Shown: positions 24,866 to 26,812 of the stretch, piece after piece
Layout: every line of letters starts with the position of its first letter
Numbering within the stretch: position 1 is the first letter of the stretch
Assembly: GCA_902826065.1 (NCBI GenBank)
Contig: CADEDM010000019.1
Span: 1 to 42,139 of the forward strand
Source: an uncultured Acidobacteriota bacterium
GTDB lineage: Bacteria > Acidobacteriota > Vicinamibacteria > Vicinamibacterales > UBA2999
Direction of reading: 5' to 3'
Length of the DNA stretch: 42,139 nucleotides
Program-made: the position numbers and the translations under genes
Notes under the pieces: model-generated
Databases searched by the model: none
What the model saw: the letters and a program-made list of their open reading frames with translations, nothing else
Told to the model about the DNA's origin: nothing

Positions 24866-25561
24866 TCAGTCTTCCTTCCAGGGATTCGTCGCGAAGATCG
24901 CCACCTCGGGCCACAGCACCCGCTGCGGCAGGTCGAGGGCGGCGAAGATCGTCGCCGCGATGTCAGCAGCGTAGAGCTTGTTGGGGTTGTTGCGGCCGCG
25001 GCGGCCGCCAAAGTTCGTCTGCACCTCGGACGGGCAGACGCACGTCACACGGATGCCGTGCGGCCTGAGTTCGGCCTGCCAGCACTGGCTGATGCCGCGC
25101 ACCGCCCATTTGCTCGCCGCGTAGGCGGTGGCCGTCGCCGCGCCCTTCATGCCCGACGTCGAGGCGATGTTCACGATGTCGCCGGCCTGCTGGTCCTTCA
25201 ACAACGGCACGACGCGATTGGTGAGGTCGACGAGCCCGAAGACGTTGGTTTCGAACATCGCCCGCATCTGGTCGACGTCGAGCGCGCCGATCTCGCCGCG
25301 ATACGCGTAACCGGCGTTGTTCACGAGCACGTCCACGCCGCCCATCCGTTCGACCGCCTCGTCGAGCGTGCGCTGATTGTCGGCGCCGACGCCGACGTCG
25401 GCCCGCACGCCGAAGGCGCCGGTATCGCGTGCCAGCGCGTCGATGGCCGCCTGGTCGCGACCGGTGAACACGACGGTGTGCCCGGCGGTAGACGCCTGGG
25501 TGACCAGCGCGGCGCCGATGCCCTGGCTACCGCCGGTGATGAGGAATCGCTTGGAAGACAT
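24866..25561 (-). CDS. short-chain dehydrogenase/reductase
   Basis: A 231-residue classical SDR oxidoreductase. The dinucleotide loop is TGGSQGIG (near residue 9), NNAG is near 82, and the catalytic set is a serine in IASTSG with YAASK (Tyr and Lys near 147-151). The GRD in FTGRDQ suggests NADP(H) preference. The substrate is unknown. The ATG at 25561 follows a TATAGT hexamer by exactly six bases, within a palindrome shared with the divergent glutaredoxin-like gene, so the two are probably expressed together. Confidence 0.88.
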   Translation of the reverse strand: MSSKRFLITGGSQGIGAALVTQASTAGHTVVFTGRDQAAIDALARDTGAFGVRADVGVGADNQRTLDEAVERMGGVDVLVNNAGYAYRGEIGALDVDQMRAMFETNVFGLVDLTNRVVPLLKDQQAGDIVNIASTSGMKGAATATAYAASKWAVRGISQCWQAELRPHGIRVTCVCPSEVQTNFGGRRGRNNPNKLYAADIAATIFAALDLPQRVLWPEVAIFATNPWKED

Positions 25562-25567
25562 GCTGGC

Positions 25568-25575
25568 ACTATAGT
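25568..25575. promoter_or_regulatory. palindromic bidirectional -10 element ACTATAGT
   Basis: ACTATAGT is its own reverse complement. On the plus strand TATAGT (25570-25575) is followed by six bases and GTG 25582. On the minus strand TATAGT (25573-25568) is followed by six bases and ATG 25561. Both genes would be leaderless and start from overlapping -10 elements. No -35 is evident on either side. The sequence symmetry is directly visible; promoter function is inferred. Confidence 0.65.
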
Positions 25576-25581
25576 TCTGCC

Positions 25582-25836
25582 GTGACCGATGCGCGCGTGG
25601 TGCTCTACACGAAGCCGGGCTGCCACCTGTGCGACGACATGCGTGACCTGCTGCAAGCGGCGCTCCGCGCCACCGGTGTCGTGGTGGCCGAACGCAACAT
25701 CGCGCAGAGCCTCGACGATTTCGAGCACTACAAGCACGACATCCCGGTGCTCGTCATCGACGGCCGGGAGATCGCGCGTCACCGCATTTCGGACGCCGCG
25801 CTCGACGCGGCGCTTCGCCACGCCGGCCTGCGCTAG
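25582..25836 (+). CDS. glutaredoxin-like thioredoxin-fold protein
   Basis: An 84-residue thioredoxin-fold protein. The redox motif is KPGCHLCDD (CxxC near residues 14-17), and a cis-proline lies in IPVLVIDG (near 59). It belongs to the short glutaredoxin-like group. Start is GTG 25582, six bases after TATAGT, with no Shine-Dalgarno sequence. It diverges from an SDR gene and is convergent with the TIGR01777 gene (10-bp gap). A role in thiol redox balance is the likely but unproven function. Confidence 0.85.
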   Translation: MTDARVVLYTKPGCHLCDDMRDLLQAALRATGVVVAERNIAQSLDDFEHYKHDIPVLVIDGREIARHRISDAALDAALRHAGLR

Positions 25837-25846
25837 CGGGTCGCGG

Positions 25847-26812
25847 TCAGGCCGCCGCCGGACGCCGGCGCGCGCGCCACTCGTCGCACAACGCCTGCGC
25901 GGCCTCGGGCCAGTGCGGATGGCGGAAGCGGAAGCCGCTGTCGAGCAGCCTGGCCGGCACGACGCGACGGCTCTTGAGCATCAGCTCGGTTTCCGAGCGC
26001 ATCAGCCACGCGCCGAGCTCGAGCAGACAGGGGCCAGCCGGCAGGCCGACCGGCACGCCGGCGGCGACGCGCAGGGCGTGCATGAAATGCGCGTTCGGTA
26101 GCGGATTCGGCGCGGCGATGTTGACGACACCGGTGAGATCGGGCCGCGCGATCAGCCATCGCACCGCGGCGACGAAGTCCTCGTGGTGCACCCACGAGAG
26201 GTACTGCCGGCCGTCCGAGGCGCGTCCGCCGAGTCCGTGCCGCACCAGGCCGAGCAGCGTGTCGAAGATGCCTTCGGGATCGGGACTGAGTGTGATCGCC
26301 GAGCGCATTGCCACCTTGCGTGTCCCCGGTGTTGCTGCCGCGTCCAAGGCCGCCTCCCAGGCCCGGGCGACCTCGATGCTGAACGACCACGATGGCGGCG
26401 CGTGTCCTTCCTGTCCGCCGAGGCGGCCGGTGTACTCGTCGTTGGCGCGGTCGAACGAATGCGCGTAGATGGTCGCCGTGCTCGCTTGCAGCCACGTGCG
26501 TGGCGGAGTGGCCGCCGCCGCGATGGCGCGGCCCACGGCCTCGGTCGAGCGTACGCGCGACTCGAGGATCTCCTGCCGGTTCGCGGCGGTGTAGCGGCAG
26601 TTGACACTGCGGCCGGTGAGATTGACGACGACATCGGCGCCGTCGAGTTCGCGCATCCACGGGCCGTCCGACACGCCGTCCCAGGCGACCACCCGCCACG
26701 GCGCGGGAACCGGCCGCCGGCTCAGCACCACGACGTCGTCTCCGGCGGCGTGGAACGCGCGCGCCAGCAGCATGCCGACCTGTCCGGATCCGCCAGGCAT
26801 CACGATTCTCAT
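25847..26812 (-). CDS. TIGR01777-family NAD(P)-binding epimerase-like protein
   Basis: A 321-residue extended SDR of the YfcH/SULA-like (TIGR01777) group. It has the dinucleotide loop MPGGSGQVG (near residue 5), VVNLTGRSV (near 63), SRVRSTEAVG (near 87), STATIYAH (near 110), LSWVHHEDFV (near 207) and a C-terminal domain with SRRVVPARLL (DUF1731-like) near 282. The function of the family is unknown. The ATG at 26812 overlaps the DCC gene's stop by 4 bp (ATGA), so the two form an operon controlled from the TetR operator at 27296-27323. Confidence 0.88.
   Translation of the reverse strand: MRIVMPGGSGQVGMLLARAFHAAGDDVVVLSRRPVPAPWRVVAWDGVSDGPWMRELDGADVVVNLTGRSVNCRYTAANRQEILESRVRSTEAVGRAIAAAATPPRTWLQASTATIYAHSFDRANDEYTGRLGGQEGHAPPSWSFSIEVARAWEAALDAAATPGTRKVAMRSAITLSPDPEGIFDTLLGLVRHGLGGRASDGRQYLSWVHHEDFVAAVRWLIARPDLTGVVNIAAPNPLPNAHFMHALRVAAGVPVGLPAGPCLLELGAWLMRSETELMLKSRRVVPARLLDSGFRFRHPHWPEAAQALCDEWRARRRPAAA

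Follow-up and report, generated by a model that had tools for sequence, protein, structure and literature searches.

A palindromic -10 element as a candidate promoter of two divergent, putatively leaderless genes in an uncultured Acidobacteriota bacterium

Introduction

Bidirectional promoters of bacteria are built on a pseudo-symmetric -10 element, with transcription starts on opposite strands 7-25 bp apart (Warman et al. 2021, via PMC12825309 and PMC10268837). The pertinent passages of PMC12825309 describe such promoters mainly in E. coli and Salmonella, give 18, 10 and 23 bp as the commonest start spacings, a preference that allows variation, and report that the steric effect at weak E. coli bidirectional promoters is small unless one direction is strongly activated. 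Neither the word 'leaderless' nor the word 'untranslated' occurs in the searched text of that paper. Leaderless genes are described separately, by a TANNNT signal roughly 12 bp ahead of the start codon (PMC3160421; for Deinococcus-Thermus, PMC12340547), which the consulted passages of PMC3160421 report in all three Acidobacteria analysed, for 9.7-19.4% of genes. The passages searched in these two papers treat single genes, and a shared divergent hexamer was not found in them.

In the literature searched, with the supplementary cases of Warman 2021 outside its scope, we found no paper describing one symmetric hexamer that serves two leaderless starts. The nearest described system is lysG/lysE of Mycobacterium tuberculosis, in which the promoters of two divergent genes overlap and one lysE transcript is leaderless (PMC5648196). 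Bidirectional promoters and leaderless genes adjacent to a -10 element are each known already.

Here we describe a divergent junction from a Vicinamibacterales-type Acidobacteriota genome (5.65 Mb in 416 contigs, ~71% G+C), situated in a 42,139-nucleotide stretch of DNA that was analysed as a whole and is called the window below. Like the Warman/Grainger promoters, this site has one symmetric -10 element readable both ways, at which mutually exclusive polymerase binding is expected. Unlike the commonest E. coli spacings, its predicted spacing is 21 bp, on a ANTATANT core; because spacing is presented as a preference in PMC12825309, a value outside 18, 10 and 23 bp is compatible with membership of the class. 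A further difference from the Warman/Grainger promoters is that both RNAs are predicted to be leaderless, so that the same 20 bp would also fix both translation starts. As in leaderless TANNNT genes, a distance of exactly 12 bp separates each hexamer's first T from its start codon. The site resembles lysG/lysE in having divergent genes with overlapping promoters. It differs in that the lysG/lysE intergenic region measures 108 bp, its promoters have -35 elements, control involves an operator and a LysR-type regulator, and no one -10 serves two leaderless genes there (PMC5648196).

Geometry of the divergent junction

The minus-strand gene (24866..25561) encodes a classical short-chain dehydrogenase/reductase (SDR) of 231 aa with an ATG start (PF00106, E 2.5e-49); hydroxysteroid dehydrogenases, PDB 1hdc among them, are its closest relatives of known structure. 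The plus-strand gene (25582..25836) encodes a glutaredoxin-like DUF836 protein of 84 aa with a GTG start (PF05768, E 5.9e-17), a CxxC motif of the form CHLC and a related structure in PDB 1wjk. Orthologs of the SDR align from residue 1 and those of the glutaredoxin-like protein begin at the same residue; ATG 25561 and GTG 25582, each the earliest possible start of its open frame, agree with these orthologs. Both open reading frames are real genes, and both are predicted to be leaderless.

Direct reading of positions 25559-25584 gives CAT GCTGGC ACTATAGT TCTGCC GTG. The core ACTATAGT (25568..25575), common to both genes and of the form ANTATANT, is perfectly self-complementary, as the original prediction had stated. 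Equally exact were its statements that TATAGT is followed on both strands by exactly 6 bp and then a start codon (ATG 25561 on the minus strand, GTG 25582 on the plus strand) and that 20 bp separate the two start codons. The plus-strand hexamer occupies 25570..25575, with T25575 as the predicted -7 and A25571 as the -11 position, and the minus-strand hexamer occupies 25568..25573, its predicted -7 being the T opposite A25568. From the first T of the hexamer to the start codon the distance is 12 bp on both strands (25570 to 25582 and 25573 to 25561). Thus ACTATAGT provides a -10 readable on both strands through its symmetry, as in the Warman/Grainger promoters, and each gene has the TANNNT about 12 bp before its start that characterizes the leaderless class, an arrangement conserved in orthologs. 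The two 6-bp discriminators are TCTGCC on the plus strand (25576..25581) and GCCAGC on the minus strand (25562..25567); they would lead to transcription starts at G25582 and at the A of ATG 25561, respectively, which by this geometry are predicted to lie 21 bp apart on opposite strands.

Neither gene has space for a 5' leader bearing a Shine-Dalgarno sequence: the gap between hexamer and start is only 6 bp and contains, by inspection, no purine-rich Shine-Dalgarno-like run. No -35/-10 promoter was detected in 25350-25850, with no -35 match in either direction; inspection gave no TG extension of the -10, and neither terminators nor Rfam RNAs were found near the site.

The core is rare: ACTATAGT occurs once in the window against 0.01 expected, and ANTATANT four times in 1.24 Mb of the own genome. 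The full arrangement CATN6ACTATAGTN6GTG is present once in the whole 5.65 Mb (reversed control, 0), and about 0.012 two-sided N6 sites are expected per genome by chance. Each half of the arrangement, on the other hand, follows a widespread grammar. In 1.24 Mb of the own genome we scored, without gene calls, the 608 TANNNT hexamers that agree with TATAAT at one or more additional positions; ATG followed them 35 times at spacing 6 and 22 times at spacing 7 against a background of ~8 (p 1e-12 at 6), and GTG 22 times at spacing 6 against a background of 9.6. The -10-N6-start arrangement is therefore a genome-wide signal in the host. Spacing 6 is where a start codon should lie if its first base is also that of the RNA, and the peak agrees with the bacterial leaderless signal of TANNNT about 12 bp before the start.

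Comparison with relatives

The SDR gene lies beside the glutaredoxin-like gene in no other genome searched, and the pair was seen in the genome of the window only. Conservation of the pair was therefore dropped as a test of the shared promoter, and selection on the window site as a two-way promoter is not demonstrable from a pair found in one genome. Both sides of the window junction depart from genus-mate synteny. In the genus mates whose upstream flank was read (L003, L004 and L005), a UPF0270 gene, at a distance of about 50-112 bp, is the divergent neighbour of the glutaredoxin-like gene; in the comparison for insertion of the pair, an epimerase-like gene adjoins TetR in G004, where SDR and glutaredoxin are both absent.

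Fragmentation of the assembly into 416 contigs, the absence of the pair from the relatives searched and the loss of synteny on both sides would all fit a metagenome assembly artefact that joined two separate leaderless genes. We consider this improbable: the two genes meet precisely at the common -10, each with a spacing of 6, and related genomes contain many equivalent two-gene sites. A palindrome of 8 bp is also too short to mislead assembly at the usual word lengths.

The glutaredoxin half of the site is well conserved on its own gene. TATAGT-N6-ATG/GTG precedes the glutaredoxin ortholog in all five nearest relatives (the four genus mates G001-G004, and G005), in diverged surroundings and with no SDR next door. 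The upstream elements are CTATAGTGCTGCG-ATG in G001, CTATAGTGGACGG-ATG in G002, CTATAGTGGACGC-GTG in G003, CTATAGTGGAGCG-ATG in G004 and ATATAGTACTGGC-ATG in G005; TATAGT-N6-start is absent from the more distant glutaredoxin copy in G033. Among SDR orthologs, a -10 at exactly N6 from the ATG takes the form TATGAT (L095, L096), TATCAT (L093), TACTCT (L097), CATAAT (L099, L107, L108, L110), GATAAT (L103) or TACTAT (L114), largely of the TATNAT/NATAAT type; the remaining SDR orthologs have no such -10, or another spacing.

These data bear on whether only the glutaredoxin promoter is real, the SDR gene being transcribed from elsewhere and the minus-strand hexamer and its spacing being coincidental. 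The glutaredoxin promoter is clearly ancestral, and its CTATAG core is self-complementary already in relatives without an adjoining SDR. Such a coincidence is nevertheless unlikely, since SDR orthologs follow the same -10-N6-ATG rule and the search gave no other promoter or start codon. Moreover, the SDR-side spacer GCCAGC resembles the spacers of SDR orthologs (GCCGGC, GCCCAC and GCCGTC) and is unlike anything upstream of glutaredoxin. The genus mates G001-G004 carry G at the base matching 25568, so that their opposite strand reads TATAGC and lacks the -7T, which the passage of PMC10268837 on this element counts as one of the two most conserved positions of the -10. By comparison with these four genomes, A at 25568 occurs in the window only and gives TATAGT both ways; the -7T on the SDR strand was thus gained in the window alone.

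A perfect inverted repeat between divergent genes could also be an operator for a dimeric regulator and not a promoter. Eight bp are short for an operator, relatives conserve an asymmetric TATAGT-N6-start for each gene and not the repeat, and the genome-wide N6 peak is typical of a -10 element, all of which makes an operator very improbable.

Recurrence of the two-sided architecture

Two-sided sites were sought as CAY-N6-core-N6-RTG, with the reversed pattern as an approximate control. For ANTATANT as core, where N6 in both directions places the predicted starts 21 bp apart, the family contained 19 sites against 1 control and the order (162 genomes) 44 against 7; at a spacing of 9 on both sides, the corresponding numbers were 13 and 9. 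Open reading frames of at least 75 aa flanked 24 of the 35 inspected sites on both sides, compared with 18.3% of unselected CAY-N20-RTG sequences in the own genome (p 1e-10). Partners at such sites include glucokinase (L152), lipoyl synthase (L248) and, as judged from its sequence, an RsmH-like methyltransferase (L253). In the 23-bp register (ANNNTANNNT) the excess was modest (77 versus 41), and in the 18-bp register, the most frequent one in E. coli, there was none overall (33 versus 50). Because independent one-sided promoters yield some two-sided sites by coincidence, these counts support real two-gene promoters and not a frequency above the gene-order expectation.

From a phylum-wide search only conserved cases were used, since AT-richer genomes raise the background. 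In one of these, genus g148 from another Acidobacteriota family, eight species (L303-L310) have the same 21-bp register. The site, CATGGATTCACTATACTGAGGCAATG and variants of it, lies between a deacetylase-like gene whose product carries an HPDDE motif of PIG-L type and a gene for a secreted VWFA-related protein (both named from their sequences). Its 8-mer ACTATACT is identical in all eight species. Compared between four distinct lineages, identity is 100% in the core, 64-75% in the spacers and 41-43% in the coding flanks (ungapped), and in one species ATG is replaced in place by GTG on both sides. This site is the strongest natural case and would suit experiments better than the one in the window.

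A further comparison is offered by rpiB and an RlmI-like methyltransferase gene, which have a 23-bp-register core, AGTGTACAAT, common to G001-G004 (L227, L228, L230 and L273-L276). In the own genome (L277) their start codons are further apart and rpiB retains TACAAT-N6-ATG. Sharing of the hexamer has thus been gained and lost while each gene retained its own -10-N6-start, which may also be the pattern at the SDR-glutaredoxin site.

Model and implications

We consider it likely that the 20-bp interval is a minimal bidirectional promoter whose symmetry also places two leaderless starts, and that it arose by head-to-head joining. Under this model, RNA polymerase with the housekeeping sigma factor would bind the symmetric TATAGT/TATAGT core in two mutually exclusive orientations. 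Transcription would begin about 7 bp past each -10 hexamer, with the start codon's first base (25561 on the minus strand, 25582 on the plus strand) as the first base of the RNA, yielding two leaderless mRNAs. The -35 region and upstream contacts of each promoter would fall within the opening codons of the gene on the other side. Two genes with pre-existing leaderless -10-N6-start promoters would have been joined head to head in the lineage of this genome, leaving one hexamer to serve both; joining within or beside the common TATA would be the simplest history.

The original prediction had proposed that a shared symmetric -10 drives two leaderless genes in a fixed relation between two redox enzymes. 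The promoter part gains support by comparison: each half is conserved with its gene in relatives, the N6 grammar is genome-wide, and the architecture recurs and is conserved elsewhere. The pairing of the enzymes as a meaningful unit gained no support: it is found in this genome only, genus mates have UPF0270 as the divergent neighbour, and the comparative data contain no sign that the SDR and glutaredoxin-like proteins belong together. Polymerase competition at the window site is plausible; given the small steric effect at weak E. coli bidirectional promoters, a fixed enzyme ratio is not expected from the architecture alone.

The window site would unite bidirectional promoters and leaderless mRNAs in a 20-bp element, with a single hexamer dictating four initiation events. 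For Acidobacteriota rich in leaderless genes, we lean, by a narrow preference, towards a general formulation: a symmetric -10 may be a design that recurs under selection, a single hexamer fixing where transcription and translation begin for both divergent genes, and a lineage could build it by joining two independent -10-N6-start promoters at a shared TATA. If true, gene order could be rearranged at a breakpoint in the promoter core while expression is kept on both sides. CAY-N6-ANTATANT-N6-RTG would serve as a rule for predicting two-way promoters from sequence alone in mostly uncultured organisms, and the search names natural conserved test cases. The window site also suggests how compact divergent pairs arise and decay, each gene retaining its own start signal.

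Further two-sided sites

Several minor observations accompany the survey. The form ANTATANT is rarer in the own genome than base composition predicts, its four occurrences comparing with roughly 11 expected on a rough estimate, possibly owing to selection against stray bidirectional promoters. In genus g2 (L141-L146), six genomes retain a 21-bp-register site, and only some of these have intact frames on both sides; the start codons here may be misplaced, or the site may lie inside a leader. In three genomes (genus g11; L213, L214 and L215), a cytochrome-oxidase-like gene, named by sequence reading, and a divergent gene share an 18-bp-register site. Finally, at position 1501 of L153, one palindromic -10 with N6 in both directions is shared by the divergent genes for fumarate hydratase and an aspartase/fumarase-family lyase, enzymes that plausibly catalyse successive metabolic steps, and a fumarate hydratase gene is also found at similar sites in L151 and L260.
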